Below, piece by piece: positions 1,936 to 20,600 of a stretch of 22,598 bases of DNA (within the stretch, counting starts at the first letter, position 1; each line of letters opens with the position of its first letter). The notes beneath the pieces were generated by a model. It had not been told where the DNA came from, ran no database searches, and saw only the letters and a program-made list of their open reading frames with translations. The stretch covers positions 1 through 22,598 of the forward strand of contig JAILZY010000060.1 in assembly GCA_023512255.1 (NCBI GenBank), given 5' to 3'. The translations under genes and the position numbers were made by a program. The stretch comes from a bacterium (GTDB lineage Bacteria > SZUA-182 > DTGQ01).

Positions 1936-2756
1936 GTTTTTTACTTCAGCCAAGGTGCCAGAGAGTGCTGCTCTTGGGGTGCTTAGGCTGTCTGTACTTC
2001 CTGTTGTGCGGATGCGGCGGGTTGAAGTACACTAAGCGAGTCCAACCCCCTATTTCTGTTGAGCGGGTACTCGCCCAGTTGGTTGAGCATCGCCGCGGCT
2101 TTGAGGATTTGCGGGCTAGGGTCTTTATAAGTATAAGCAGAGAGGGGAAGCGGCAGAGCTTTTCGGCCAATCTTCTCTTTGACTCCTCTGGTCGGATTCG
2201 AATCGAGGGAGTCGGGTTTGCTGACATTCCTTATTTTTTCTTGGCCGCTGATCCTAATCGTATCTGTCTTTATGAGCCGGCTCAGCAGCGACTGATTTGT
2301 GGGGAATCATCGAGTCAAAATTTGGAGCGGTTAGTTGGCCTCGAGCTTCAACCTGAGTCAGCAGTGGCTATTTTTTCAGGAAATCTTCCGGCCAGCGTGT
2401 CCTTTCCACCCCTAAGAGGGGTCTTCTCCCGAGCTGATCAGGATGGGAGTGTGGAATTTTTTTCTGACTCTGACCAGACCTGGTATCGCCTCTGGGTAGA
2501 TCGGCAAAAGGGGGTAATGGTAAGGATGGAAACCAAGAGTGCGGACAAAAAGCCTCTCCTGACTGTCCGGTTTGAGGACTACCAGATGGTGGATGGGTAT
2601 TATTGGCCTAGGCAAATAGAGTGTTCTCTCCCTTCAAGGGTAGATCTTAAAATCAGGTATAAGCAGTTTTCGTTAAACTCAGGAATTTCTGACCATGCCT
2701 TTCACCTGCCGTATCCTCCTGGAACTGTGATCGAGAATATTGGCAGTCTCTGGTAA
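1932..2756 (+). CDS. DUF4292-like outer-membrane lipoprotein (LolA/LolB fold)
   Basis: A 274-residue protein with a hydrophobic leader and a lipobox-like Leu-Cys-Gly-Cys, lipidated cysteine probably Cys28. The rest resembles the DUF4292/LolB-like family, which adopts the LolA-type open beta-barrel that holds acyl chains. Visible family features are the region after residue 50 (FEDLRARVFISISREG), then RIRIEGVGFADIPYFFLAADP and the stretch LERLVGLELQPE. Its start codon overlaps the stop of the TPR gene (ATGA), indicating translational coupling, and the TPR plus DUF4292 pair is a familiar arrangement in deltaproteobacteria-like genomes. The function is probably lipoprotein or lipid handling at the outer membrane, by family analogy. 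Family assignment is from pattern recognition. The leader carries four cysteines (9, 17, 20, 26) before Cys28, so the exact lipidation site is uncertain. Confidence 0.72.
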   Translation: MSFLLQPRCQRVLLLGCLGCLYFLLCGCGGLKYTKRVQPPISVERVLAQLVEHRRGFEDLRARVFISISREGKRQSFSANLLFDSSGRIRIEGVGFADIPYFFLAADPNRICLYEPAQQRLICGESSSQNLERLVGLELQPESAVAIFSGNLPASVSFPPLRGVFSRADQDGSVEFFSDSDQTWYRLWVDRQKGVMVRMETKSADKKPLLTVRFEDYQMVDGYYWPRQIECSLPSRVDLKIRYKQFSLNSGISDHAFHLPYPPGTVIENIGSLW

Positions 2757-2785
2757 GGTAAATCAAGGGAAAGAAAAACCACAAG

Positions 2786-2877
2786 GGTAAGGAGCAAATT
2801 ATAAAGGCAAGGAGTTTTAGCCTTATCCAGCCGAGATTCTAATTTCTGGTAAGGAGCGAATTATAGCAAGGAGTTTT
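2786..2877 (+). repeat. Direct repeat duplicating a ribosome-binding-site leader upstream of trxB
   Basis: Two near-identical leaders lie at 2786-2818 and 2848-2877. Each begins GGTAAGGAGC, continues through AATTATA, and ends GCAAGGAGTTTT. They differ by one substitution and a three-base indel, with a period of 62 bases. Only the second copy is placed to serve the ATG at 2882. The first copy has no start codon at useful spacing and looks like a relic of duplication. Confidence 0.8.
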
Positions 2878-2881
2878 CTTA

Positions 2882-3865
2882 ATGTCTATTTATGACACTA
2901 TTATTATTGGTGGAGGACCGGCAGGGTTGAGCGCTGGCCTCTATGCCGCCAGAGCTGGCCTGCGATCTTTACTTTTGGAAAAGAGCTTTCTTGGGGGGCA
3001 GGCCATAACTGCTGATCGGATTGAGAATTATCCCGGTTTCCCCGAGCCGATCAGCGGGCTAAAAATTATCCAGAACATGGAAGAGCAGGCCAGAAAATAT
3101 AATTTGGCGATCGTGGTCCGGGAGGTCAAATCTCTTGAGGCAGAGGAGGGTAAATTTCGGATCTATCTCGAAGGGGGGCTTGAGGGGAAGCTTGAGCCTG
3201 AACTTGAAAATAAGCTCGAAAATGGGCCAGAAAACGGAGGGCTTTTGCTCAGCCGGACAGTGATCGTAGCTACGGGCGCATCTCCTATTCGTCTCAATGT
3301 TCCGGGTGAGGTGGAGTTTACAGGTCGTGGGGTCTCCTACTGTGCTACCTGCGATGGGCCGCTATTCAGGGATCGTGAGGTGGTGGTTGTCGGAGGGGGA
3401 AACTCTGCTGTGGAGGAAGCACTCTTTCTGGCTAAATTTGCCAGGAAAGTTACCATTGTCCACCGCCGGAGCGCTCTTCGGGCAGATAAGATTCTTCAAG
3501 ATCGGGCCTTTCAAAACCCCAAGATACACTTTTTATGGAATTCGGTGGTTCAGGAGATCAAGGGAGATTCGCAGGTTCGGGCCGTTAGCTTGCAAGACCT
3601 CACCTCTCGCTCCCTGACTACCCAGCCAACAGATGGTCTATTTATTTATGTAGGTTCAAAACCCAATACCGCTTGGCTGCCTCCGGCAGTCAAATTGGAT
3701 GATAAGGGGTTTATCATTACCGATGAGAGGCTCTCAAGCAGTCTGGCTGGTCTATTTGCCGCTGGGGATTGTCGGCAGAAACCGCTGCGGCAGATTATTA
3801 CCGCGGCCAGTGATGGAGCCTTGGCTGGAATGATGGCTTATCACTATCTCCAGGAAAAAACTTGA
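2882..3865 (+). CDS. trxB: Thioredoxin reductase
   Basis: A 327-residue flavoprotein that transfers electrons from NADPH to thioredoxin-like proteins in the cytoplasm. The FAD-binding GGGPAG is at residues 10-15. The redox-active CATC is at Cys154-Cys157. The NAD(P)-binding GGGNSAVEEA starts at residue 171, followed by VHRRSALR, whose arginines fit NADPH preference. The C-terminal FAD motif is GDC near 295-297 followed by RQIITAASDGALAG. Length is normal for the family, but residues about 97-121 hold an odd Glu/Leu/Asn/Gly-rich insertion where E. coli TrxB has a short beta-hairpin. AAGGAG lies about ten bases upstream of the ATG, within the duplicated leader. The stop codon lies inside the -35 box of the downstream promoter. 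The disulfide oxidoreductase encoded at 11684-12316 is a plausible electron acceptor. Confidence 0.93.
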   Translation: MSIYDTIIIGGGPAGLSAGLYAARAGLRSLLLEKSFLGGQAITADRIENYPGFPEPISGLKIIQNMEEQARKYNLAIVVREVKSLEAEEGKFRIYLEGGLEGKLEPELENKLENGPENGGLLLSRTVIVATGASPIRLNVPGEVEFTGRGVSYCATCDGPLFRDREVVVVGGGNSAVEEALFLAKFARKVTIVHRRSALRADKILQDRAFQNPKIHFLWNSVVQEIKGDSQVRAVSLQDLTSRSLTTQPTDGLFIYVGSKPNTAWLPPAVKLDDKGFIITDERLSSSLAGLFAAGDCRQKPLRQIITAASDGALAGMMAYHYLQEKT

Positions 3866-3891
3866 CAAAGATTTAGTAAATACAGTATAGT
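3862..3891 (+). promoter_or_regulatory. Strong promoter overlapping the trxB stop codon
   Basis: A consensus TTGACA (3862-3867) and TATAGT (3886-3891) are separated by 18 bases. The trxB stop TGA (3863-3865) lies inside the -35 element, so the promoter begins within the last codon of the previous gene. It would start transcription of the polyprenyl synthase-ApbE-NusG_II-Gx cluster near 3898. Confidence 0.65.
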
Positions 3892-3940
3892 GGCTTTGTT
3901 TTTGACTGTCTATTAACCCAATAAAAACAAAAGGTTTGTC

Positions 3941-4945
3941 ATGTTACCATCGACTATTTCCTCCCTGATCGGCGATGATCTTGCCAAGGTCGATCAGCAT
4001 CTGAAGAGCTTGCTTGAGTCGGACAATCCCCTGATTTCGCAGATTGGAAATTACATATGCCAGAGCGGCGGCAAGAGAGTGCGGCCTATTCTACTTTTGT
4101 TGAGCGCCCAGGTGGCTGGACATCAAACTCAGCAGACAGAAGACTATCAGGGACAGAGGGAGCGAGCCGTTCATTTGGCCAGTATTATCGAATTTATCCA
4201 TGCAGCCACGCTGCTGCACGATGATGTGATCGATAATGCCTCTTTGCGTCGGGGAAGCCCATCAGCCAATAAAAAGTGGGGAAATCATTTGCCTGTGTTG
4301 GTCGGAGATTACCTATACGCTATCTCCTTTTATCTTCTGGTTAAGGATAACGATACGAGGATAATGGAAACGGTATCCAAGGCTACGGCCACGGTAACTG
4401 ATGGCGAGATTTTGCAGCTGCAAAAATGTGGAGACCTTGGGATTCGAGAGGAAGAATATCTTGAGATCATTGCCAAAAAAACCTCCTGCCTGATGGCTGC
4501 AAGTTGCCGTATCGGGGCTATTTTGGGAGGGGCTCAAAAGGAGCAGGTGGAAGCCCTCTGTGATTATGGAACAGATGTCGGCATAGCCTTTCAACTGGTG
4601 GATGATCTTTTGGATTATATCTCCCGTGAGGAGAAGCTCGGCAAGCCGGTCAATAATGATCTGCAGGGAGGAAACTGCACACTCCCCCTGATTAGGACCT
4701 TGCAGGTAGCCTCTTTGCAAGAAATAGAGCGGATTCGACAGATTATGTCTCAGCCTATATTGTCGCCGGATGACCTTGCCTGGATTGTCAGCCTGATCAA
4801 GCGTTACGGTGCAGATAAATTTACCCTGGATCGGGCAGCCTGGTATGTCCAGAGGGCTAAAGAGCGGCTGGCAGTATTTGCCGATTCTGTCTACCGCAAG
4901 GCTCTGTTTGATTTTTCAGACTATATCATCCAGCGGGATTTCTGA
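3941..4945 (+). CDS. Long-chain all-trans polyprenyl diphosphate synthase (IspB/DmkB-like)
   Basis: A 334-residue cytoplasmic isoprenyl synthase that adds isopentenyl units to an allylic diphosphate to make the side chain of menaquinone or a related quinone. The first Asp-rich motif is HDDVID (Asp94, Asp95, Asp98), preceded by small residues in FIHAATLL that leave room for a long product. The second is DDLLD (Asp221, Asp222, Asp225), followed by EEKLGKPVNNDLQGGN and TLPLI. GGKRVRP near residue 45 binds diphosphate. Size and motifs match octaprenyl/heptaprenyl synthase large subunits. It is the first gene after a strong promoter, and apbE starts 11 bases after its stop. Chain length cannot be set from sequence alone. 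In this context it resembles DmkB of flavin-based electron transfer loci. Confidence 0.9.
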   Translation: MLPSTISSLIGDDLAKVDQHLKSLLESDNPLISQIGNYICQSGGKRVRPILLLLSAQVAGHQTQQTEDYQGQRERAVHLASIIEFIHAATLLHDDVIDNASLRRGSPSANKKWGNHLPVLVGDYLYAISFYLLVKDNDTRIMETVSKATATVTDGEILQLQKCGDLGIREEEYLEIIAKKTSCLMAASCRIGAILGGAQKEQVEALCDYGTDVGIAFQLVDDLLDYISREEKLGKPVNNDLQGGNCTLPLIRTLQVASLQEIERIRQIMSQPILSPDDLAWIVSLIKRYGADKFTLDRAAWYVQRAKERLAVFADSVYRKALFDFSDYIIQRDF

Positions 4946-4956
4946 TTGATCAGATC

Positions 4957-6003
4957 GTGAAAAAAGCATACCTACTTTCTTTTATTGCAGGCCTACTTAT
5001 TGCAGGTCTAGTGGTGCTGGCGACTTTATCGTTTATCCCATCCTGTGGTCTTTTCTCTTCTTCATCTGAGCAGATTTATCACCAAGATAGATTTCTGATG
5101 GGTACCCTGGTTACGATAAGTGTAGTCTCTCCCAACAAGGAGCAGGCGATGGCAGCCATAGGCCGGGCCTTTGAGGTCATGCAGGAGATTGAAAATCAGG
5201 CCAGTAAAAGGATCCCCTCTAGCCTGACCAGCAGAATTAATCAGGCTGCTGGCCGCGGCTCTATCCCCGTTTCTGCTGATTTTTTCGAGATGATCAAAAA
5301 GTCTCTTGAATATTCAAGGCTGACCGAAGGAGCCTTTGACATAACCATCGGGGCCGTTACCGAGCTCTACCACTTTGAGGATGGCCAGGGTACCCTTCCT
5401 GATCCTTCTGCCATACGGCAAAAATTGCCGCTGGTCGGCTATCAGCAAATTCAGCTTGATGAGGAGCGCCGGACCGTTGGGCTGGGCAGACCCGGGGCCA
5501 TGATCGACCTTGGAGGAATAGCCAAGGGGTTTGCGGTCAATAAGGCCGTAGAGTCGCTTAAAGAGAGTGGCATAAAAGCCGGCATTGTCAATGCGGGGGG
5601 TGATATCCGGCTCTTTGGTTACAAGCCCGGCCATAAGCTTTGGAGGATCGGCATTCAGCATCCCCGAAAACCCGACCAGGTCATAGCCTCTTTGGAGATT
5701 ACCGACCAATCCATTGTTACCTCAGGTGATTATGAGCGATTTTTCATCCGTGGTGGCGTTCGCTATCATCACATCCTAGACCCCAAAACCGGATACCCAG
5801 CCAGGGGATGCCAGAGCGTTACCATTGTCTCAGAGACAGCCACCGATGCCATGAGTGCTGGAATTTTTGTGCTTGGTCCGGAAAAGGGAATGGCCCTGAT
5901 TGAGCGGCTGCCGCAAATCGAAGGCCTGATCATTGACCGGGAAGGCAAAGCATTTGTTTCCTCTGGCCTTCGATCAAGGCTGGTTTGGAGGGATAGCCAT
6001 TAA
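4957..6003 (+). CDS. apbE: ApbE-type FAD:protein FMN transferase, lipoprotein
   Basis: A 348-residue enzyme that moves FMN from FAD onto Ser/Thr residues of extracytoplasmic flavoproteins. The start is GTG at 4957, since no ATG fits the hydrophobic leader. The lipobox-like Ile-Pro-Ser-Cys puts lipid on Cys30, so it is membrane-anchored and faces the periplasm. Family motifs appear in order: FLMGTLVTISV (about residue 46), DLGGIAKGFAV, NAGGDIRLFG, HHILDPKTGYPARG and TDAMSAGIFVLG. The last block normally reads Asp-Ala-x-x-Thr, with Asp and Thr binding Mg2+. Here it is Asp297 and Ala301, which may weaken metal binding. No obvious flavinylation target (FMN_bind domain) is in the window. The stop codon overlaps the apparent ATT start of the next gene. 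Confidence 0.92.
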   Translation: MKKAYLLSFIAGLLIAGLVVLATLSFIPSCGLFSSSSEQIYHQDRFLMGTLVTISVVSPNKEQAMAAIGRAFEVMQEIENQASKRIPSSLTSRINQAAGRGSIPVSADFFEMIKKSLEYSRLTEGAFDITIGAVTELYHFEDGQGTLPDPSAIRQKLPLVGYQQIQLDEERRTVGLGRPGAMIDLGGIAKGFAVNKAVESLKESGIKAGIVNAGGDIRLFGYKPGHKLWRIGIQHPRKPDQVIASLEITDQSIVTSGDYERFFIRGGVRYHHILDPKTGYPARGCQSVTIVSETATDAMSAGIFVLGPEKGMALIERLPQIEGLIIDREGKAFVSSGLRSRLVWRDSH

Positions 6004-7121: not shown

Positions 7122-7139
7122 AGGGACATAACCCTTTTT
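7122..7139 (+). terminator. Possible weak terminator after the Gx gene
   Basis: AGGG (7122-7125) can pair with CCCT (7132-7135) over a six-base loop, followed by a short T-run. The stem is only four base pairs, and the element overlaps the stop codon of the converging Fe-S gene, so support is weak. Confidence 0.25.
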
Positions 7140-7806
7140 ACCCTATCCATAAACCTTCAATACGTACCCTCAGCCCATCCTTGGTTTTGCCAAGGCTATT
7201 GACCAGCCCGCAGTGTCGCCACTGGAGCATGCAGTAGCGAGGCTGGAAGTAATACCGCCTGCCGATCTGAAGCTCAACTCTGCTTGAGTGTACCAGACCT
7301 TCATAGGCCGTAGTATTGTAGTAGCCGATATTGATACCTCTTTCTCTGGCCAGCATTGGCCCAACTACACACCAGACTACGGTGCCGTTGAAATAGTCAG
7401 GTTCTTCGACCACAACTCCCACGTGGCTAACCGGGCATCCGCAGGAAATCCAGCCAGGTCGTCCATAGAGGATATCGCCCTTTTTGAGGCCAAGTTTTTC
7501 CACGTTAGCCGGATTAAACAGGATGATAGTCTCTCGTGGTCCGGGCTCTTGTGGAAACTTATCTAGGATAAAATCATACTCTCGGCCAAGGTTATCCTTC
7601 CAGCAGATCTCGGTGTCGGCAGCAGCAGCAGATTCCTGGGCATTTGCCGGCTCAGGCTGCACAGATGATTCCCCAACAAAGATGCATCTTTTAATAGCCT
7701 GGGGATTTTTTGATACTATTTCGGAAAACTCTTCACAGCTTTTAAGTCCACACAGACCGCAATTCTTTCCTGGCAATTTAGCCATTATTTCGCTTGTGCT
7801 GTTCAT
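7138..7806 (-). CDS. Fe-S domain protein with C-terminal beta-rich domain, unknown function
   Basis: A 222-residue protein. The start at 7806 is preferred over an in-frame upstream ATG at 7902 because GAGGAGAG lies just before it and the 32 upstream residues would be translated from a tandem repeat and hairpin. Residues 16-41 form a Cys-x2-Cys-x4-Cys-x16-Cys motif (Cys16, 19, 24, 41), matching the 4Fe-4S domain seen in CdhE-like and related proteins. After a low-complexity linker (about 47-62), residues about 65-222 form a beta-rich region including VEKLGLKKGDILYG, resembling the double-psi barrel of molybdopterin-type proteins. It carries further cysteines (SCGCP, a Cys in VVWCVVG, RYC...RHCG). 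It is the last gene of a minus-strand operon with a GTPase and an ABC-type ATPase. The operon context suggests metal-cofactor assembly or reductive activation; no function is claimed. Confidence 0.7.
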   Translation of the reverse strand: MNSTSEIMAKLPGKNCGLCGLKSCEEFSEIVSKNPQAIKRCIFVGESSVQPEPANAQESAAAADTEICWKDNLGREYDFILDKFPQEPGPRETIILFNPANVEKLGLKKGDILYGRPGWISCGCPVSHVGVVVEEPDYFNGTVVWCVVGPMLARERGINIGYYNTTAYEGLVHSSRVELQIGRRYYFQPRYCMLQWRHCGLVNSLGKTKDGLRVRIEGLWIG

Positions 7807-7836
7807 GGTTATTCTCTCCTCATGCAATTTTAGGGA

Positions 7837-7856
7837 GGGCGGCCTTGTGGCCGCCC
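7837..7856 (-). repeat. Perfect hairpin in the leader of the Fe-S gene
   Basis: GGGCGGCC (7837-7844) and its exact complement (7849-7856) flank a four-base loop. It lies in the 99-base gap between the GTPase stop and the Fe-S gene start, on the transcribed strand. No U-tract follows, so it is more likely an mRNA-stability or partial attenuation structure than a terminator. Confidence 0.7.
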
Positions 7857-7894
7857 CAGGATATGCGCCCCAGGATATGCGCCCCAGGATATGT
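7853..7894. repeat. Triple 14-bp tandem repeat
   Basis: GCCCCAGGATATGC occurs at 7853-7866 and 7867-7880, and at 7881-7894 with the last base changed to T. It abuts the hairpin at 7837-7856 and sits between the GTPase and Fe-S genes. Confidence 0.9.
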
Positions 7895-7905
7895 ATGTCC
7901 ATTTG

Positions 7906-8604
7906 TTATTCCCCACGATAAAATATATCCGCCTCAAGAGGCCGCAGTACTCCAAAGTGAGCCTCTCTCCCGATATCTTTTTTGCCCACGCAGATCGTGC
8001 AGGTTCCTACTGGTGGATTTCCCCGCAGAAAGGATGGCTCTTGTATTTCTCCCATTTTCTCTATTCTCCTCACGATATGGTCGATATTGATTCCGTGCAG
8101 GGCATCGGTTTCGATCACAGCCACATTCGCGGCATCATTGATGTTGGCTCTAAATACCTCCCGCTCGGCCTGAGATACTAGATCAATTTTGGTGACTACC
8201 GCAATGTCGGCCAGCGACAGCATGGGACCAATTTTCCTGGGCAGATTTACGCCGCTGGTGGCCTCCAGGATGACTATACCTAGTGAGTTTTCGATGTAGG
8301 GTGAGCAGCGCAGGCACAGGCCTGCTGTTTCCACAAAGAGCATCTCGGCCCCGGTTTGTTTAGCCCATCGCAGGGCATCACCTAGAACCACCACATTGCA
8401 ATGGTCCGGGCACAAATCCCCTGAATAAACCTTTCTGGCAGGGATTCCATACTCTAGGGTAAAGATCTGATCCTCGTCCGCGAACTGAACATCAATCTTC
8501 AGATAGACTAGCTTATATCCTCTGGCCAAGAGTCTTTTGATTACCTGCTTTAAGACGGTTGTTTTCCCGCTTGTCGGAGGACCAGCACAGATAATAGCTT
8601 TCAT
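7906..8604 (-). CDS. CobW/P47K/HypB-type GTPase, cysteine-rich
   Basis: A 232-residue SIMIBI-class GTPase. Walker A is GPPTSGKTT (residues 8-16), the switch region is ETAG (92-95) and the base-specificity motif is TKID (138-141). Three cysteine pairs stand out: Cys65/Cys69 (DLCPDHC), Cys97/Cys100 (GLCLRC) and Cys202/Cys205 (GTCTIC). The middle pair directly follows the switch, as in GTPases where metal binding gates nucleotide hydrolysis. Relatives deliver Ni, Co or Zn, or have been annotated as cobalamin-synthesis P47K proteins. The start at 8604 has GGAG seven bases upstream. It lies between the ABC-type ATPase and the Fe-S protein on one transcript. The most likely role is nucleotide-driven insertion or quality control of a metal or corrinoid cofactor; the client is unknown. 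Confidence 0.8.
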   Translation of the reverse strand: MKAIICAGPPTSGKTTVLKQVIKRLLARGYKLVYLKIDVQFADEDQIFTLEYGIPARKVYSGDLCPDHCNVVVLGDALRWAKQTGAEMLFVETAGLCLRCSPYIENSLGIVILEATSGVNLPRKIGPMLSLADIAVVTKIDLVSQAEREVFRANINDAANVAVIETDALHGINIDHIVRRIEKMGEIQEPSFLRGNPPVGTCTICVGKKDIGREAHFGVLRPLEADIFYRGE

Positions 8605-8660
8605 GATATTTCTCCTTCAGTTAAGTAGGTCAAGGGCGTAATTAGGTTCAGGCACAGGCA

Positions 8661-9467
8661 TCAGGCAATATACCCTAAGGCCCGCAGCTGCTCCTTTAGG
8701 TCTCGTTCTTCAAGTCGGCATCCTGCTCGAATCTGCGACCTTAGGCCAAGCAGGAGATCATCCAGCTTTTTGATTTCCTCGGCAACCTGCTTCTCCTCAT
8801 CTCCTGTGATGATTAGCTCCTGCATGGCTCCGGCTTTCATGACCACTCGAAAGTCAGACAGGAGGGTAATTCGAGGATCGTGGGTAACGAAGATGAATAT
8901 TTTCTTGTAGTGCCTTAGAAGCTCTAGGGCCTTGGTTCGGTGGATCCCGGCATTTTCTATTTCATCCAGCAGGATGATTGGTGAATTTCCAATGATGACC
9001 GCGTCGGCTATCAGCAAAGCGCGGGTTTGGCCGCCTGAGAGTTCGGTCATGGCGCTATCCATGATAATCGGCTCTCCGGTAAGGAGGTTGGCAAATTCCA
9101 GGGTTTGGTGGATGATAGAGACTGGTGATGAGCTGGTTTGTCGTATTCGAACATGGGTTTCGAGAAAGCGGTACACGGGCAGATCGGAAAGGAAATTGGT
9201 GTGTTGGGTAATTAGGGCAATTGGATTTGTGGATGGATCTTCCAGATACTTTTCTGAAGGGGGACGGTCATTTATGAGTATCTTTCGCCGTGAGGGGGTG
9301 TTGCAGTTAGCGAAAAGAGCGATGTCATTGATCAGGGTGGTCTTTCCCGATCCGGTAGGGCCGACGATACTCACCACGTTGCCCATTGAAAGGGTTATTT
9401 GCTCGACCAGGTCTTTTTGGCCGTTTTTGCCCTGGCCACCGATGATGGTGATTTTTTCTATCTCCAT
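8661..9467 (-). CDS. ABC-type ATPase without a membrane partner
   Basis: A 268-residue nucleotide-binding protein with a complete ABC set: Walker A GPTGSGKTT (36-44), Q-loop Gln88, signature LSGGQ (143-147), Walker B IILLDE (164-169) and H-loop His196 (VTHDP). All catalytic residues look intact. No permease or substrate-binding protein is encoded nearby, and the neighbours are a soluble GTPase and an Fe-S protein. A soluble role is therefore more likely than transport, by analogy with stand-alone ABC ATPases such as SufC or the methyl-coenzyme M reductase activator AtwA. The C-terminus (from about 222) is charged and helical. AAGGAG precedes the ATG at 9467. It is the first gene after the minus-strand promoter at 9589-9617, with a leader of about 115 bases. 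Confidence 0.8.
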   Translation of the reverse strand: MEIEKITIIGGQGKNGQKDLVEQITLSMGNVVSIVGPTGSGKTTLINDIALFANCNTPSRRKILINDRPPSEKYLEDPSTNPIALITQHTNFLSDLPVYRFLETHVRIRQTSSSPVSIIHQTLEFANLLTGEPIIMDSAMTELSGGQTRALLIADAVIIGNSPIILLDEIENAGIHRTKALELLRHYKKIFIFVTHDPRITLLSDFRVVMKAGAMQELIITGDEEKQVAEEIKKLDDLLLGLRSQIRAGCRLEERDLKEQLRALGYIA

Positions 9468-9481
9468 GATATAATCTCCTT

Positions 9482-9512
9482 TATTATAATTTGTTACTAT
9501 TATAATTTGTTA
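9482..9512. repeat. 16-bp-period direct repeat in the ATPase leader
   Basis: TATTATAATTTGTTA occurs identically at 9482-9496 and 9498-9512, one base apart, immediately upstream of the ribosome-binding site of the minus-strand ABC ATPase gene. It is AT-rich and could be an unstructured ribosome-access region, a protein site, or a slippage product. Confidence 0.85.
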
Positions 9513-9588
9513 TATTATTATCGCCACGCGGCTATCATGGGTTAAGCTTTATAGTTAGTTACCATTAGTTTTCAGCTTGTACACTCTT

Positions 9589-9617
9589 ATTATACTCTAA
9601 TCGGAGTGTTAAGTCAA
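9589..9617 (-). promoter_or_regulatory. Near-consensus promoter of the ABC-GTPase-Fe-S operon
   Basis: On the minus strand TTGACT (9617-9612) is followed after exactly 17 bases by TATAAT (9594-9589). This gives a leader of about 115 bases to the ATG at 9467 and one transcript for the three genes, whose gaps are 56 and 99 bases. Confidence 0.75.
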
Positions 9618-9702: not shown

Positions 9703-10305
9703 ATGCATCTTTCTGATAAGCCTTATGATAAGCCTATAGATAAGCTGGCTGAGCGGATTAAGTCTTGCGACTGGTGTCGATTGAGTGGCGGAAGACCGGT
9801 TGCGGGCGAAGGCAACCCGCGAGCGCAGATCATGTTTATCGGAGAAGCCCCGGGCAGACAAGAAGAGCTGGCAGGCCGCCCCTTTATCGGTGCTGCTGGA
9901 AGATTGCTCAATCAACTCTTGCACGATATCGGTCTTGAGCGGGATGAGGTTTATATCACTAATGTGATAAAATGTCGCCCTCCAGAAAATCGGGACCCAT
10001 TGCCGGAAGAAATCGAGGCTTGCCGACCGTGGCTCGATGAGCAGATAAGATTGGTTCGTCCTAGGTTGATTGTGCTTCTTGGAAAGCATGCCTTGGGCCG
10101 TTTCCTGCCAGGGTTAAAAATATCGAATGTGCATGGGCGGCCTCAGCAGGCAGAAGTGCCAGGTCTTGGATCTATTGTCTTTTTTCCTGTCTATCATCCA
10201 GCCTCTGCCCTCTACAACAAGGGTATGCGGACTCCTCTTGAGGAGGATTTCAGGAAAATACCAGACCTTTTGCGATCAATTGTGGCTGGGCGCTGGCCGT
10301 CGTAG
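9703..10305 (+). CDS. Family 4 uracil-DNA glycosylase ([4Fe-4S])
   Basis: A 200-residue repair enzyme that excises uracil from DNA in the cytoplasm. It matches the thermophile-type family 4 (UDGa) that is widespread in bacteria. Motif A is GEAPG (47-51), followed by GRPFIGAAG. The four cluster cysteines are Cys22, Cys25, Cys91 (KCRPP) and Cys107 (ACRPW). Motif B is HPAS (165-168). Length is normal for the family. The start at 9703 gives the expected N-terminus plus a short tandem repeat (gene positions 9715-9750) that adds Asp-Lys-Pro-Tyr-Asp-Lys-Pro-Ile-Asp-Lys before the first conserved helix. No clear ribosome-binding site is visible and the upstream gap is repetitive. It is divergent from the Fe-S/GTPase operon, and no functional link is evident. 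Confidence 0.9.
   Translation: MHLSDKPYDKPIDKLAERIKSCDWCRLSGGRPVAGEGNPRAQIMFIGEAPGRQEELAGRPFIGAAGRLLNQLLHDIGLERDEVYITNVIKCRPPENRDPLPEEIEACRPWLDEQIRLVRPRLIVLLGKHALGRFLPGLKISNVHGRPQQAEVPGLGSIVFFPVYHPASALYNKGMRTPLEEDFRKIPDLLRSIVAGRWPS
9715..9750 (+). repeat. 12-bp tandem repeat inside the glycosylase N-terminus
   Basis: GATAAGCCTTAT, GATAAGCCTATA and GATAAGCTGGCT lie head to tail. The first two are near-identical and the third is half conserved. They encode a repeated Asp-Lys-Pro/Leu at residues 5-16, before the conserved part of the enzyme. Confidence 0.8.
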
Positions 10306-12826: not shown

Positions 12827-12856
12827 CTTTTATGAGAAGGAGTCTTGGTTTATGAG
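12809..12856 (+). repeat. Duplicated ribosome-binding-site/start cassette
   Basis: GAGAAAAGGAGT followed by TTTATGAG (12809-12836) is repeated as GAGAAGGAGT followed by TTTATGAG (12834-12856). The first ATG (12832) opens a seven-codon frame whose TGA overlaps the giant gene's ATG at 12852 (ATGA), a typical coupling arrangement. Confidence 0.6.
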
Positions 12857-15800
12857 GAAAAAGAGACAAGATCTTCTAGTTAGCCTGGCAGTGAGTTTTT
12901 TAATAACCCTCCTGTTCTCTGGCTGTGGAGGGGGTGGTGGAGGGGGAAAATCCCAAACACCCCCTGCAACTACAACCTATACCTATACCTTGACTGGAGA
13001 GGTTTATGATGAGCTCCTTGATGGAGCCACGGTTTCCTTTTACTTGACCGATCCCAATCATCCTATTGCCCAGACAGTGACTAATTCGAGCGGGACCTAT
13101 CAGGCTCAGGTTACGGTAAATGCCGGCACTCAGATTATCTACACCAGGGCTTGCGGAGGGAGATTAGCCACTTCTGGTGAGGAATTCAGCGGAAGGCTCT
13201 ATGGGGTAGCGCCGCTTACAGGAGCAGCAGGAGGTGCTACCTTGCAGGTTCACCTCAATCCTATAACCTCCCTGCTCCGGCACTATCTGACCGAAACATC
13301 GGGCGCTACCCTCGATAATGCCCTCGGTCTGCTGGCCGGAAAGCTCAAAGAGATCGACCCCAATGCTCCTGATAGTATTTCCCAAAGTGATTTGCCCCGA
13401 CTCAGCAGATCCAATGCCCTGGTTAGGCGGATCAGCAACCTGATCAGCTATCAGGTCGATCAGGCTGATCCGAATAGCCGCAGTATTGATCGGGTAATTA
13501 GCCGTATTGCTGGCGGATGGCTGCCTGATGAGAGCAAGCTTAGGCAGGCTCTGGAGCTAGCCGAAGCAGCGGTTGCGAACGGGAAAGGGGAGCTGACCGG
13601 ACTGGTAGTTGATTTTGATACCAAAAATCCGGTCCAGGGAGCTACGGTTAGGGTTCGGGGCACTTCTTTCCAGAGCCAAACTGATACGGATGGAAACTTT
13701 TTCTTCCGCCAACTGCCTGCCGGCATGTCCCTGATTGTTGAGGTAGAGGCTTCTGGATATGCCAGCACGCAAGAGATAGTCGAGATCTCTTCGCATGAAA
13801 AGAGTCAGAATATACTCATCAGCCTCAAGGCTGTGGCGGCCAGGGCGGTCCTGGACCTTGAGCAGGGGATCGTCGCCTCCCGCTATCGTGCTAGGGCTCG
13901 GAGCCTGCGGGATGGCGGGCTGCAGATCTCAACCTTAGACAATTCCATGAGTCTGACCTTTCCGGCCGAAGCCCTTGGCCGGATGCGGCGCCACTTCAGC
14001 CAGCAGCAGGCTCGCTATAGCGGCGGTGCCGAAAATCAAAATCGGATTGTCTATGTCAATATGACCCCAATAGACCCTACGAGGGAGATCGAGGCTTTCC
14101 CTGGCGATTTTACCACTAGCGATCCTGATGCCGAAGGAGTTTTGGCCGCAAGGGAGAAAAAGCTTGAATCTGTAGTTTTGGGAGAATTTAGCCTAGTGGA
14201 TGAATCCGGCAGGCCGATCACCGATCTTGACCTGGGTGAGGGGGTCGAGATTCGCTTTCGCCTTCCCGAAGCCCTTCAGGAGATGTATAGACAAAAATAT
14301 GATCAGGGCGAGCGCACTATTCCCTGGTATGCCTATGATCCAAATGATGGCATCTGGAAAAGATCGGACCAGCCATCGAGGCTGATTCTGGTGGATGATG
14401 TTTTGTATGCCGTGGCTGTGGCCACTCACTTTAGCTGGTGGAACGTGGATTGGCCAGTGGAAACCCACGGCTGCATTGAGGGATATGTGCGGCAGGATGA
14501 TCAGCCACTGGCTGGAGTTCAGATTGAGGCCAGCGGCATTGATTATCAGGGGCAGAGCTTTGCCATGACTGACCAGAGCGGCCATTATCAAATTACGGTC
14601 AAAAGGGGTGCCTGGTCCAGGATCACTGCCCGCTTCGGAGGATATGAAATAAAAGATCCAAATCCCGTTTATGTAAGCCGTCAAAAGTCAGAAGGGTGTG
14701 AGCAAAAGGATATTAATTTTCACCTGGTGGATATATGTGGCCGAGTGGTAAACCAGAATAATCAGGGGATTCGCGGGGCCTATGTCTATGTTGACACCGG
14801 GATTGGAAAGTTCACTGATCCAAATGGAGATTTTCACTTAATCAGTGACCCGAATCGCAGCCTAAAATTGAAGGTTTCCTATACTCACAATCAGATTAAC
14901 TATCATGTAACCAAGGATGTGGCTGTAGGGAGTGAAGATTTGTGTGGTGATCGCAAAATCATCATTCCCCTTGATCTTTCACCCCAGTATGTGCGGGGAT
15001 TCATAAAAATTATTGAAAATAATGCGACAAAGCCTCTTTTAGGCAAGGAAGTCAAAATCTCGGCTGACAATGGATTTACCACTAGCAATGACAGCCAAGG
15101 CTTCTATGAGGTGGCGGCAGAGCGAGGCACAAGTAATCTCAAAATCCTCTATCGCTACTATGCCAGCAATGGAAGCTATCTTGAGCAGAGCCGCTCGTTT
15201 TCCTGGTCAGGGTCAGGCGCTCTTCAGGGTGATCCGAATGTAACCTTTGAGCTTCATCCTGCCTGGATCTGGGGGAGGGTAGCTGATAAAACCACCGGTG
15301 AGCCGATTCCTAATATCCGGATCTCTACTACCCTAGGTACCTACACTCTGTCTGATCCGAACACGGGAGAATATGAGCTTGAGGTTCCGGCCAATACTAG
15401 TTTTAAGGCCATAGCCCGGCTGGTCATTCCCGCGGCTGCAGTGGTGGAGGAGGATTGCCAGCAGATTGATCCTCTTGGCTTTGGTGAGCGAAGACAGGTT
15501 AACTTTACCCTGGACAGCAGGGTAGCCAAAATCAGCGGCCAAGTCACTGACTCCCAAGGCAATCCGCTCCCCTATGTTTCGGTCGTCAGCGAGTACAAGG
15601 CCCGGACAATGACTGACTCAAGCGGCAATTTTACCCTAATTGTTCCAGCTAAGATTAATGTAAAGCTAGCCTTTACCTGTGAGGGATATATACCGGAAAT
15701 CAGCGAATTTTCTACCCCAGATCGTGGAGTAACCAAGGATATTGGCCAGGTTGTGCTGAATAAGCCCAATTTTAGACCAGTGATTCAGAAGGTGGATGTC

Positions 15801-17468
15801 CAGCCAGGTCTTCGGGTCTGCTGGGGCGGGGACCCCAATTCAACGGTCATTACCCTGAAGATTACGGCTATAGATATTAACGGCGATCCGCTGACCTATC
15901 AGGTCATAACGCCAAATGGTACGCCTGCGGCCACCCTGATCGCTGATCCTAACTGCTTTAGCTGGAAGGCGCCTGCCCTAGGTCAGTATTCATTAACCGT
16001 GCAGGTATCGGATGGAAAAGAAAATGGCACAGCCACCGTTCGGCTGCCGATCGAGGTAGTGAATTGTGTAGAGAATCGAGCTCCGGTAATTATCTACCTA
16101 TCGCCAGACAAGCCCGTGATCGGCACAGTTGGCCAGACTAAAAGCTTTGGGGTTGTAGCCTATGATCCGGATGGAGATGAGCTGGCCTACCAGTGGCAGA
16201 TCTTGGATCAAAACCAGCAGGTCCTTGACCATAATGTCTGGTCATTATCCGCACCTTCTGGCAAAAATACGAATCTGACTATCCCAGCAGGGCTATTTAA
16301 CGACCGTGATCCGAATCAGCCTGCTCAATTTACCGTCCGGGTAACTGTGAGTGATGGGAAAGGGAAATCCGTCACCAAAGGGGTCTCCTTGACCGTGTGG
16401 GCTAATCTGCCGCCGCAGATCCGAACAATCATGGTTGAACCTAACCATTGTATTTTGGGGGATACGGTTAAACTCCTGGCTGAGGCTACGGATCCTGACG
16501 GAGATTATCCTCTTGTCTATAGCTGGTCCTGCCGGGGAGTTTCGATTGGGATTGGTTCCAATATTAACTGGACCATTCCTGATGATCCAAACTATGTTGG
16601 CTCTCAGGCTATCCAATTGACGGTTGAAGATAGTGATCCTGATCATCCTCGCTCAGCCAGTCAAATTGTGCAGTTGGTGGTCGGGGCAAACAGTGCGCCT
16701 GTGATTAGCGCCTTGACTCCTGACAAGATAAGGGTTTTGCCTGAGGAGGTGATTGGTGTTCAGGCGGCAGTGTCTGACCCTGAAGGCCGGGCTCTTGAGT
16801 TTGTATGGTCCTGCACTGCTGGAGCCATTATGAGCGGGCAGGGGACAGGCCAGATCACCTGGAAGGCTCCGCAGGATACCGGCGATAGCAAGATTTCTCT
16901 TACTGTAAGCGATGGGCTCAGGCAGACCACAAGAGAGGTTACTATCCGGGTATCTACCCTGACGGTTGATGCCGGAGAAAATAGGGTGATTCTCCTGCAA
17001 GCTTTACCCATTACCCTTCAGGGACAGGTGAATATCAGCCCAGCGAATGAGCCCTACACCATAGCCTGGCGGATCGATCCAAACAGCATCCCTGAGGGGG
17101 CGAGCCCGCAGCTTTCTTCCCCCACTAGCCTAGCTACTCAATTCAGCACCAATGCTGTTGGCAACTACCACATCTGGCTGACGGCAACTGCGGGTGGTGA
17201 AATTTCCGACCAAGATGACCTTTGGGTGAAGGTTACCGATCAGACCCCGCCCACGGTCTCAGGCTATGTGAAGGATGCTCAAGGGAATCCGATCTCTGGG
17301 GCTGCGGTTGAGATGTACAGTGCAAATAGCCGGCAGGACTGGGATCAGAAGACAGTAACTGACCAAAGCGGCTATTATGAATTCAGAGATGTTCCATCCG
17401 GCACATACTATGTGATTGTGGCCCGCGAGGGATATTGGCAGATGACCAAAGTGATCACCATTCCTTAA
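12852..17468 (+). CDS. Giant modular lipoprotein: carboxypeptidase-regulatory-like and Ig/PKD-like domains
   Basis: A 1,538-residue surface or periplasmic lipoprotein. The lipobox is Phe-Ser-Gly-Cys with Cys25, followed by seven glycines. Carboxypeptidase-regulatory-like beta-sandwich modules lie at about 47-110, 246-325, 540-620, 627-695, 713-785, 804-880, 893-970 and 1466-1538. They show the G-x-V...G-x-P(L/I)-x-G-A-x-V and TD-x-x-G-x-Y/F pattern. Residues about 330-537 form a different domain ending WYAYDPNDGIW...HFSWWNVD, like the ZU5-related region found before such repeats. Residues about 975-1460 are five Ig/PKD-like modules with the DPDGDxLxYxW hallmark. No catalytic residues are recognised, so a structural, adhesive or ligand-binding role is inferred. 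Asp-Pro-Asn occurs about 14 times with varied codons. It starts at ATG 12852 behind AAGGAG and is followed by a second giant lipoprotein gene. Confidence 0.85.
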   Translation: MRKKRQDLLVSLAVSFLITLLFSGCGGGGGGGKSQTPPATTTYTYTLTGEVYDELLDGATVSFYLTDPNHPIAQTVTNSSGTYQAQVTVNAGTQIIYTRACGGRLATSGEEFSGRLYGVAPLTGAAGGATLQVHLNPITSLLRHYLTETSGATLDNALGLLAGKLKEIDPNAPDSISQSDLPRLSRSNALVRRISNLISYQVDQADPNSRSIDRVISRIAGGWLPDESKLRQALELAEAAVANGKGELTGLVVDFDTKNPVQGATVRVRGTSFQSQTDTDGNFFFRQLPAGMSLIVEVEASGYASTQEIVEISSHEKSQNILISLKAVAARAVLDLEQGIVASRYRARARSLRDGGLQISTLDNSMSLTFPAEALGRMRRHFSQQQARYSGGAENQNRIVYVNMTPIDPTREIEAFPGDFTTSDPDAEGVLAAREKKLESVVLGEFSLVDESGRPITDLDLGEGVEIRFRLPEALQEMYRQKYDQGERTIPWYAYDPNDGIWKRSDQPSRLILVDDVLYAVAVATHFSWWNVDWPVETHGCIEGYVRQDDQPLAGVQIEASGIDYQGQSFAMTDQSGHYQITVKRGAWSRITARFGGYEIKDPNPVYVSRQKSEGCEQKDINFHLVDICGRVVNQNNQGIRGAYVYVDTGIGKFTDPNGDFHLISDPNRSLKLKVSYTHNQINYHVTKDVAVGSEDLCGDRKIIIPLDLSPQYVRGFIKIIENNATKPLLGKEVKISADNGFTTSNDSQGFYEVAAERGTSNLKILYRYYASNGSYLEQSRSFSWSGSGALQGDPNVTFELHPAWIWGRVADKTTGEPIPNIRISTTLGTYTLSDPNTGEYELEVPANTSFKAIARLVIPAAAVVEEDCQQIDPLGFGERRQVNFTLDSRVAKISGQVTDSQGNPLPYVSVVSEYKARTMTDSSGNFTLIVPAKINVKLAFTCEGYIPEISEFSTPDRGVTKDIGQVVLNKPNFRPVIQKVDVQPGLRVCWGGDPNSTVITLKITAIDINGDPLTYQVITPNGTPAATLIADPNCFSWKAPALGQYSLTVQVSDGKENGTATVRLPIEVVNCVENRAPVIIYLSPDKPVIGTVGQTKSFGVVAYDPDGDELAYQWQILDQNQQVLDHNVWSLSAPSGKNTNLTIPAGLFNDRDPNQPAQFTVRVTVSDGKGKSVTKGVSLTVWANLPPQIRTIMVEPNHCILGDTVKLLAEATDPDGDYPLVYSWSCRGVSIGIGSNINWTIPDDPNYVGSQAIQLTVEDSDPDHPRSASQIVQLVVGANSAPVISALTPDKIRVLPEEVIGVQAAVSDPEGRALEFVWSCTAGAIMSGQGTGQITWKAPQDTGDSKISLTVSDGLRQTTREVTIRVSTLTVDAGENRVILLQALPITLQGQVNISPANEPYTIAWRIDPNSIPEGASPQLSSPTSLATQFSTNAVGNYHIWLTATAGGEISDQDDLWVKVTDQTPPTVSGYVKDAQGNPISGAAVEMYSANSRQDWDQKTVTDQSGYYEFRDVPSGTYYVIVAREGYWQMTKVITIP

Positions 17469-17525: not shown

Positions 17526-17609
17526 GGCCTAAGTGCTAAGCTCAATTGTTGTGGCCATGAAATATTTTTTGAGAATTTATCAATCATCTCTTTGAGAAAG
17601 GAGAAAGGA

Positions 17610-20600
17610 ATGAAAGCTTTCAGAAAATCATGGGTCTTTTCCCTAGCCTTTTTGCTCATCCTTGGGCTGGGATGCTCGTCAAAGAGCAATCAGACCGCCG
17701 CGGATGCAGACGGAGGAAAGACGAGCGAGAGACGGGTTCTCCTCAGCGGTACGGTTGACACTAACGGCGCTTCGCCAGAGGGAGTTTTGATTACCGCCGC
17801 CAGCATTGATTATATTCCAGGGCAAAGCTCCTCAGGATTATATACCACCCAGACTAACTCTGAGGGCTACTACGCCATGACCATCCCGGTGGGTGTATAT
17901 AATGTAACCGCTGAAGGTGTGGGGCTTCAGAAGGCGGCTCGGAGCAAAGTACGCCTTTCAGGCACGACCACCCTTGATTTTGTTCTGACCGCAACCGGTG
18001 ATTTGGCCGGTCGAATCAGCTATCACCAAAGCCCGCAGGAAGGAATAGTGGTCTTTTTGTACGGCACCCAGTTTATGGCCGTAACTGACCAAAATGGAAG
18101 CTATAGTCTGCGGGGTATTCCGATTGGGAGCTATCGGCTGGGGATTATTATCCCTAATGAAGATGGAGGAGCTCTGCCGGTGGCTGATGCGGTAGTTATT
18201 GAGGCTGGAAAGACCAAAGACTTAGGAACCCTCGATGGCTACACTTTGGGGCGCTTTGCCTTCATTGATTATCTTGAGCCTGGTAAGATTGAAACCAGCC
18301 ATGATTCTGACTATCCGATTATTATTCACCGCTATGAGCTGTTTGATGAGTGCATGAACCAAAATCAAGGAATTTTGGTGAAATTTCAGCGGGAGATGGA
18401 TGCCAAGTCGGTCGAGGAGGCGATCCAGATTGAGGCCCCGCCGCAGTTTGCAGCTAGAAACCTGCGCTGGAAATATGAATGGGGATATTACCAAACTTAC
18501 CAGGAAGAACATTGGGATTCCGAGACCGAATCCCACCAATTTATCACTAAGCGGCGCTTTTATCCTTCGGCCTGCCACCTGCTCATAACTCCCCAGGATG
18601 AGAATGGACAGCTTGCTGTCAGGAGTATGCCGGCTGGCAAGTATGTCATTCGCCTAGCCACTTCAGCTAAGGATAGGTGTGGCCATCCTCTCTATCGTGC
18701 TTGTGCTTATTCATTTGAGATTCGGGAGATGATGCGCTGGGCAGTCAATGATCATTTTCTTCCCAATGGAGCCAGCGGAGTTGATGTCGCCGGCGGCATA
18801 CAAGCTCAGTTTACTAACCTGATTGATCATAACTCACTGGACCTGTCCGCGGTAAATATCACTCCGGAGCTCTCAGGCAAAGAGGTTCTTTGGACTGACA
18901 ATAACCTTCTCATTCGTGGCCGGTATGCCGAAGGGACCAGCTACACTATCACCTTGCCTGCGGGCATAAAGACTATCTATGGCGATCCGATCATCGACGC
19001 TGCTGAGCCAGACTCTAATACCATCAGCATTCAGTTCACGACCGCATCTCCTAGGGTAGCCGCTATGCTGCCAAAGCCCGGCAGTCAGGGATACGGGATT
19101 CATGAGCCGGTAACCTTGATATTCAACACCATCACTGACCGCGACTCCGTAGAGCAACACATTAAGGTCTACGCTGAGACCGAGGCCGGCGGCAGCGTAG
19201 AGATTCCAGCCTGGCAGGATGCCAATAGCCCATCGCCCTCATATAAGCTGCTCTGGGCAAATCCGCCTGAGGAGAACCCCTCTAATTTTTACATCAGCTA
19301 CTATGAAAAGTGTGAAGGCTGCGGCCCAGGCTCAGAATGTGATGAGGTCTGCCCGAAAAGCCTTGGCGATCATCTGCTAATCTCCTTCCCACGGCAATAT
19401 GGCCATACCTATCGGGTTGAGCTGGACGGCAACGCTGTTTCCTCAATGGGGAGTAAAATCGCTGCTTTCTCAGGCTCATTTAAGACCAAGGTCCCCTGCC
19501 TGGTGGACCAGAATATCAGGGATGGGGAAACCATAACCGACCTGTATATAGAAAATCTGTGGTTCAGATACAATGTCCCGATTGATATTTCTGAGGCCAA
19601 CATCATCCTGGCCACAGAGGATGGGGAGAATATTCTGCTGGGAATAAAACCCTGGCACAGCGAGCTTTATCTTTTCCCCAAGAGTTTGCCCCACTCTACC
19701 CACTTTATCCTGACCTTGCAGAATATCAAAGCCGATGATGGCTCGCTGATTCCTGATCAGACCATTAAATTTTCAACCCCGGGGCTGACAGTGGTCGAGA
19801 GCCTGCCGTGGCATGGGCAGATCGGCTATATTCTTGAGCCGGATGGCCGCAATAATTTCGTCAACATTAAGTTCAACGGCCAGTTGACCGAAGAGATGAA
19901 ACAGGCCATTGAGGATACTACCCGGGTTATCGGTAGTATTTACAGCCCGGATGTTGATCCAAACAGTCTGCCTGCTAACTATCCACGGCCGATGTTCATC
20001 TGGTGCACTTGGAAATTTGGCTGGACACAGCTTCGGATTGCCTTTACTATGGATCCTTGCACCAACTACAAGATTCAGTGGGATAGGAATTCGACCGCTA
20101 CTTCCTGGCTGCCCCGGGACATTGTCTTCAGCACGGCCTGCCCACAAGATGAGCCGATGATGGTCAAATTGCTGTATCGCACCGAGCCTGAAAATGGGAG
20201 CAGAGGGGTAGATCTATATTCTAACGTCAATCTTTATTTTGCCGTGCCGGGAATTCAAGAATATTACGGCCCATACCGGGTGAATCTTGAAGTCTGGGCT
20301 GGCGAAACCAAGCTTAATCGCTACAACGACTACAATATCACCTTCTCTCCCTATGAGTGGGATTGTCCGATGGGACAAAAAGATCCTTGGGGCAACTGGA
20401 GATGTGACGAATCTACCTCCACATACGTCAGCCACCTTATCTTATCCTTCTCCCATCTCAAGCCCAATACCACCTATAAGATCGAGGTTACGGATATCTA
20501 TAGTGATCCATGCTATTCGGGCAGTATGCCAAGCCTGCCGCCGCTTGAGTGGAATATCCCCTATACCTATACCTTCACTACCGGAGCACCTAAGATCGAG

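Follow-up and report, generated by a model that had tools for sequence, protein, structure and literature searches.

What could a stand-alone ABC-type ATPase, a GTPase and an Fe-S protein do together when their genes lie in a row? The question was raised by a 22,598-nucleotide stretch of bacterial DNA (assembly GCA_023512255.1, contig JAILZY010000060.1; GTDB lineage Bacteria; SZUA-182; DTGQ01), called the window below. All three open reading frames (ORFs) of such an operon were present on its minus strand, as an earlier sequence-only reading had claimed. We named the genes A (ABC ATPase), B (GTPase) and C (Fe-S protein), and used S for the cysteine desulfurase gene of related loci. Here we report that A-B-C is a conserved gene group of bacteria and methanogens. 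We tentatively read it as a nucleotide-driven machine that may donate sulfur, in the form of Fe-S or persulfide, for sulfur assimilation.

Conservation of the A-B-C gene group

A search with B alone returned 80 loci. In nearly all of them A stood before B and C after B. Each of the 40 genomes chosen for B (40/40) also encoded C at full or nearly full length, in some cases on another contig. We concluded that the grouping goes far beyond chance. That the three genes might be adjacent only in this genome, a doubt raised in the sequence-only reading, was decisively dispelled, as the order was kept in nearly all of the ~80 loci.

A tree of 148 B proteins was divided into clades 1a, 1b, 2 and 3. 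Clade 1a comprised bacteria including the window and a few archaea, clade 1b Bacillota and methanogens, and clade 2 methanogens in which the genes are arranged with cysteate synthase and ComDE. Support was 0.96 to 0.98 for clades 1b, 2 and 3, and only 0.48 for clade 1a. Counted by gene order, the bacterial loci were 61 with ABC, 22 with ABSC and 5 with ABS (some loci were counted twice); ABC was counted 50 times in clade 1b and 11 times in clade 2. The order A-B-(S)-C holds in clades 1 and 2, whereas clade 3 (L142-L149, L150-L156, L158, L159, L162 and L167) has the order B'-A' without C, A' often carrying an N-terminal extension. The neighbours in clade 3 were all named by eye: in methanogens a 411-aa protein that is DUF1858-like, and in Bacillota a protein resembling either DUF364 or a binding protein. 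Near one locus of this clade (L167) a hybrid-cluster-protein-like gene was seen (by eye).

According to the record titles, the operon is held by Omnitrophota, Planctomycetota, Acidobacteriota, several classes of Proteobacteria, Bacteroidota, Chloroflexota, Hydrogenedentota, Myxococcota, Bacillota and archaea. Most holders are metagenome-assembled genomes; the isolates are Heliobacterium mobile DSM 6151, H. chlorum DSM 3682 and Rhodoblastus sphagnicola DSM 16996. Within the groups the operon was sparse, being found in 13/384 Omnitrophota, 8/68 Hydrogenedentota and 6/60 members of the family Gallionellaceae. Within the window's own genus the second genome has it too (91% identity); beyond the genus it was found in no searched member of the family, order or class. 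Such a sparse and scattered presence suggests horizontal transfer of the operon. The isolate H. mobile carries two triads from two clades (L057 and L072), the clade 1a copy with Rrf2, NifS and MetY genes and the clade 1b copy bare.

Predicted properties of the three proteins

B matched PF02492 with 43.5 bits (cut-off 20.7), and its model (pLDDT, the predicted local distance difference test, 86.7) superposed on Ni-bound UreG (5xkt_A; Z 21.3, 2.4 Å over 185 residues) and on HypB (2hf8_A; Z 19.6, 2.4 Å over 184 residues). In agreement with the earlier comparison to HypB, the modelled structure is HypB/UreG-like with a SIMIBI fold (Z 18-21). The protein carries the motifs CPDH, CLRC and CTIC. At the seven motif positions that were checked, C65, P66, H68, C97, C100, C202 and C205, the residue was invariant in 148/148 sequences, while C69 was variable (kept in 48/81 sequences). 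Three cysteine pairs had been proposed for B; C97/C100 and C202/C205 are such invariant pairs, but the first is actually C65 with the H68 of CPDH. In the sequence alignments C65/H68 coincide with the neighbouring Cys and His of M. jannaschii HypB and fall on or near the CPH of UreG, and C97/C100 flank the position of the HypB cysteine after the switch. B is accordingly predicted to bind metal. B shares with UreG and HypB the fold and the switch-region Cys-His motif (CP(D)H versus CPH), but differs by its two extra invariant CxxC motifs and by scores far under the curated cut-offs (TIGR00073, 45.3 versus 121.2; TIGR00101, 31.8 versus 204.2). Its partners, an ABC ATPase and an Fe-S protein, differ as well, and genes for urease or hydrogenase are not among its recurrent neighbours.

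C matched PF04060 with 35.8 bits (cut-off 23), and its cysteines were spaced C-x2-C-x4-C-x16-C exactly as the sequence-only reading had described. In the model (pLDDT 90.2) the N-terminal ~48 residues matched the large subunit of the corrinoid iron-sulfur protein (CFeSP; Z 5.7, 2.2 Å over 47 residues). On sequence and model, this part is predicted to be a CFeSP/RnfB-type domain of the [4Fe-4S] type. It is alike in sequence and fold to the PF04060 part of the CFeSP gamma subunit and RnfB, whereas the other ~150 residues of C hold no corrinoid or Rnf domain. They form a beta-barrel in which H128, C192 and H198 are invariant and C124 is nearly invariant in the alignment. A fold search with the barrel gave weak and mixed beta-barrel matches only (Z ≤ 3.9) and no convincing solved relative, and because of this we claim it as neither a known nor a new fold.

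A matched PF00005 with 57.6 bits (cut-off 25). Its Walker A motif, SGGQ signature, LLDE Walker B and VTHD H-loop are conserved in 40 homologues. It is an ordinary yet divergent ABC ATPase with a complete domain. In line with the earlier description of an ATPase lacking a permease, no permease gene adjoins the triad in the window, and none recurs beside A among the ~80 loci, with L050 as an isolated exception. The SUF system is similar in having a cytosolic ABC ATPase without permease, whose cluster also encodes a cysteine desulfurase and a regulator of the Rrf2 type. The triad differs from SUF in that the GTPase and C are without SUF counterpart and in that the desulfurase is NifS/IscS-like. 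None of the loci read had a recognisable SufB/D next to A, no SUFBD_core was among the families listed in the flank census described below, and the 25 best NCBIfam matches of A did not include sufC (A and SufC were not compared directly).

Sulfur genes beside the bacterial operons

The sequence-only reading had linked the triad to corrinoid methyltransferases, CO dehydrogenase and nickel enzymes. None of these recur as neighbours (co-occurrence of CooS and corrinoid proteins was not searched genome-wide). The neighbours that do recur belong to sulfur metabolism. In bacteria they are cysteine desulfurase, CysK, MetX/MetW/MetY and sulfate or sulfonate uptake genes, and in methanogens the genes of coenzyme M (CoM) biosynthesis.

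A NifS-type cysteine desulfurase, S, lay between B and C in ~22 loci. That of the H. mobile locus L057 reached 494.8 bits against TIGR03402 (cut-off 530.75), and the catalytic Cys and the pyridoxal phosphate (PLP)-Lys motif were kept in 21/21 S proteins. An Rrf2 regulator was encoded directly upstream in ~20 loci. The one regulator that was scored gave CymR (79.5 bits) and IscR (64 bits) as the best two among named equivalog models, both under cut-off.

Neighbours confirmed by NCBIfam were CysK (L030, L053), MetY (L067), ComA (L080) and HydE (L030, L049). A hidden Markov model census of 126 flanking proteins had Cys/Met PLP enzymes (4), MetX (4), MetW (3) and PALP (3) among its top families, next to general ABC and radical-SAM domains. 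In a control set of 67 more distant proteins there was 1 Cys/Met enzyme among the families listed (best 25), a comparison that is indicative only. Further sulfur genes were recognised by eye: in L183 the order was MetX-MetW-MetB-like-Rrf2-A-B-S-C-permease-CBS, L181 had a methionine importer, L180 a sulfonate-type importer and L007 CysN/CysD, and in L050 A-B-C was flanked on one side by a likely sulfate-binding protein and on the other by a likely sulfate permease.

A further arrangement was observed in L030, where a cysteine-dioxygenase-like gene (by eye) and CysK lie between S and C, followed by HydE after C (2017-3569 and 4374-5477); in L049 HydE adjoins C too (3292-4404).

The methanogen triad and coenzyme M

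In methanogens the same three genes stand among those of CoM biosynthesis. One locus (L161) had the order A-B-C-ComF(MMP16)-cysteate synthase-ComDE, and two others (L157, L160) had cysteate synthase-A-B-C-ComDE with ComF close by. The neighbour in L063 was identified as MMP16 with 503 bits. Identity of the window's proteins to the methanogen proteins of clade 1b was 44-49% for A, 50-56% for B and 33-37% for C, and the window's B was ~40% identical to clade 2.

MMP16 is the main CoM synthase and is essential without sulfide (Chadwick et al. 2025, PLoS Genet, PMC12068725). The legend to Fig. 2 of that paper, which treats archaea only, lists an 'ATPase, Ni2+ binding GTPase, COG2000 Fe-S protein', often found with CoM genes, and states that the 'role remains unknown'. 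A-B-C of methanogens matches this triad by composition and context. The claim of an undescribed system is fair for bacteria, but the archaeal triad had already been noticed in 2025 (PMC12068725). Among the papers retrieved that combine a cysteine desulfurase, CobW or HypB, an ABC ATPase and Rrf2, none dealt with this operon, and COG2000 was met in one relevant paper.

Like the methanogen triad, the window has homologues of all three proteins encoded side by side as A-B-C. Unlike it, the bacterial holders have no adjoining CoM genes, mostly lack COG1900 and often have NifS and Rrf2 instead; the window itself contains no CoM gene. Another comparison is offered by COG2122 (MA1715) of the DUF39 homocysteine pathway, whose auxiliary role in delivering sulfur is likewise required when sulfide is low (PMC5764234, PMC12068725), but which is an unrelated protein encoded by a single gene, without NTPases.

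Candidate clients

Several candidate clients or roles were compared with the presence of the triad. A nitrogenase accessory role was rejected, since nifH was over cut-off in 0/6 triad-bearing Gallionellaceae compared with 22/54 others of the family. General [FeFe]-hydrogenase maturation was rejected as a common role, since HydF was over cut-off in 16/40 holders only, and in none of the Gallionella-type holders nor in the window's genome; HydE adjoins C in L030 and L049 despite this rejection. COG1900 (the ComF family) was rejected as the client of most bacterial holders, from which it is absent. A replacement of SUF was unsupported as well: a SufB/D core (E 1e-20) was found in 21/42 genomes searched, so that the distribution of the triad follows neither the presence nor the lack of SUF (ISC was not searched). 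From these results we concluded that no single client explains the bacterial presence of the operon.

The window's genome does have one COG1900 gene, on another contig (G000 C97 6322-7913, L199). It is followed by a NIL-domain-like gene, and because of this neighbour we consider it to be of the homocysteine type.

Proposed function and alternative explanations

What the bacterial and archaeal loci have in common is sulfur going into thiols or clusters, and we therefore favoured a sulfur or Fe-S donor machine, followed by a client-specific cofactor inserter, an ATP-driven reductant and a transporter ATPase. From the gene cluster, the motifs and the neighbours we infer how loading, transfer and energy coupling might proceed. 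Sulfur from the desulfurase or from free sulfide would be loaded onto the cysteines of B and C, either as a persulfide or as a labile Fe-S cluster. Assembly and release would be powered by A, as a soluble SufC-like dimer, and by the GTPase B. Thiol-forming enzymes would then receive the sulfur or cluster, mostly under sulfide scarcity; these would be ComF in methanogens, and in bacteria enzymes of homocysteine or cysteine or the Fe-S partners of such enzymes.

A number of observations speak against such a donor. The cs and comDE genes of M. acetivorans are ~140 bp apart (gene coordinates, PMC12713407), with no triad between them, and CoM is still made, so the triad would be at most auxiliary. 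Any B homologue was found in only 38/148 genomes of the methanogen phylum. Among bacteria, many loci, including those of Gallionella, have no sulfur gene nearby, and since most bacterial holders are without COG1900 the bacterial client may well be a different one. The flank census was limited in size, and 2 proteins in it (the cysteine synthase of L030 and its neighbour) were added by hand.

The triad could also be a dedicated system for the assembly and insertion of an Fe-S or metal cofactor, an analogue of SUF or UreG/HypB that matures one or few clients; we consider this possible yet doubtful. An Rrf2 regulator, NifS and CysK are the usual make-up of an Fe-S operon, and all were seen at triad loci; the sulfur genes would then be neighbours because clusters need cysteine sulfur and not because sulfur is the product. 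The UreG/HypB metal motif in B, the CFeSP-type cluster domain in C, HydE beside C in L030 and L049 and an IscU-like gene near the operon in L198 (by eye) agree with cofactor assembly, and ComF, itself a metalloprotein, would be a conceivable client. Taken alone it leaves CysN/CysD, MetX, MetY and the sulfate/sulfonate transport neighbours unexplained, and no single client gene recurs, as seen for nifH (0/6 triad-bearing Gallionellaceae) and HydF (16/40 holders). Donor and inserter differ mainly in the product, sulfur or cluster, and the sequence evidence does not separate the two cleanly. What stands of the cofactor-insertion logic proposed earlier is a conserved, permease-less system of two nucleotide switches and an Fe-S partner, in the style of cofactor or metal handling; the CO dehydrogenase, nickel and corrinoid roles gained no support from the neighbouring genes.

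An ATP-driven reductase or activator, of the type of RACo or the 2-hydroxyacyl-CoA dehydratase activator, appears unlikely. Nucleotide hydrolysis by A and B would push low-potential electrons through the cluster of C, for example for a reductive thiolation (R-CHO + H2S + 2e- -> R-CH2SH). The N-terminal domain of C is of the electron-transfer kind known from RnfB and CFeSP, and two electrons are needed for CoM from sulfoacetaldehyde and for homocysteine from aspartate semialdehyde (PMC12068725, PMC5764234). Such a reductase would leave the operon's cysteine desulfurase unexplained. To our knowledge, no ABC ATPase or UreG-type GTPase acts as a driver of electron transfer. Very improbable, and disfavoured, is that A is the ATPase of an importer for sulfur compounds and B and C are unrelated regulators: the flanks of L050 resemble a sulfate importer and L180 and L181 lie beside importer genes (named by eye), but no permease recurs beside A among the ~80 loci, A-B-C are inseparable, and the sister clade pairs A' and B' without C.

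Returning to the sulfur or Fe-S donor, we suggest, with some hesitation, that A-B-C may represent a previously undescribed class of ATP-/GTP-driven delivery systems of bacteria and methanogens, in which the ABC ATPase and the UreG-type GTPase are a reusable motor pair and the third partner sets the job. C would direct the pair to sulfur assimilation and CoM, and the DUF1858-like, DUF364-like or binding-protein-like proteins would take its place in the sister clade. How anaerobes deliver sulfur is poorly understood: no donor of sulfur to CoM synthase has been established (PMC12068725), and one methanogen is reported to dispense with SUF (PMC10500019). The triad is a concrete and genetically testable candidate, based on invariant metal or cluster ligands and on its occurrence with both CoM genes and bacterial cysteine/methionine genes. 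Culturable bacteria such as Heliobacterium and Rhodoblastus could inform the archaeal question.

Features of the window

Coordinates of the operon and its control elements in the window
Feature	Position	Strand	Basis
A, stand-alone ABC-type ATPase, 268 aa	8661-9467	minus	ORF, PF00005
B, UreG/HypB-fold GTPase, 232 aa	7906-8604	minus	ORF, PF02492, model
C, Fe-S protein, 222 aa, PF04060 domain and beta-barrel	7138-7806	minus	PF04060, alignment, model
Sigma-70-like promoter, TTGACT-17-TATAAT	9589-9617	minus	11/12 consensus match only
Leader of A, ~120 nt, repeated AACAAATTATAATA element and AGGAG ribosome site	9468-9588	minus	direct reading

The near-consensus promoter reported earlier stands as a consensus match with 11/12 positions; across the region 6 promoter-like sites were found against 3.3 expected, and this one was by far the best. 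In the leader of A the AACAAATTATAATA element occurs twice (9480-9516), and the pair is a possible candidate operator, despite the lack of an Rrf2 gene beside the window's operon.

The long reading frame of C opens at 7902. We placed the start at the ATG at 7806, giving 222 aa, because this ATG has an AGGAGAG ribosome site and because the ORF of the same-genus homologue (L193) begins at the equivalent place, MQTTSEIMAKLPGKNCG. A short tandem repeat of ~13 bases (CCCAGGATATGCG) at 7857-7893 separates B from this ATG and extends the apparent frame of C.

A type-4 uracil-DNA glycosylase gene (9703-10305) is divergent from the promoter region of the operon, likewise in the genus's other genome (L193). 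Further along the window two very large proteins of secreted type are encoded next to each other, at 12852-17468 (1538 aa) and 17592-22487 (1631 aa); in both, stretches of immunoglobulin- or carboxypeptidase-regulatory-like sequence are repeated and DPN motifs are frequent.

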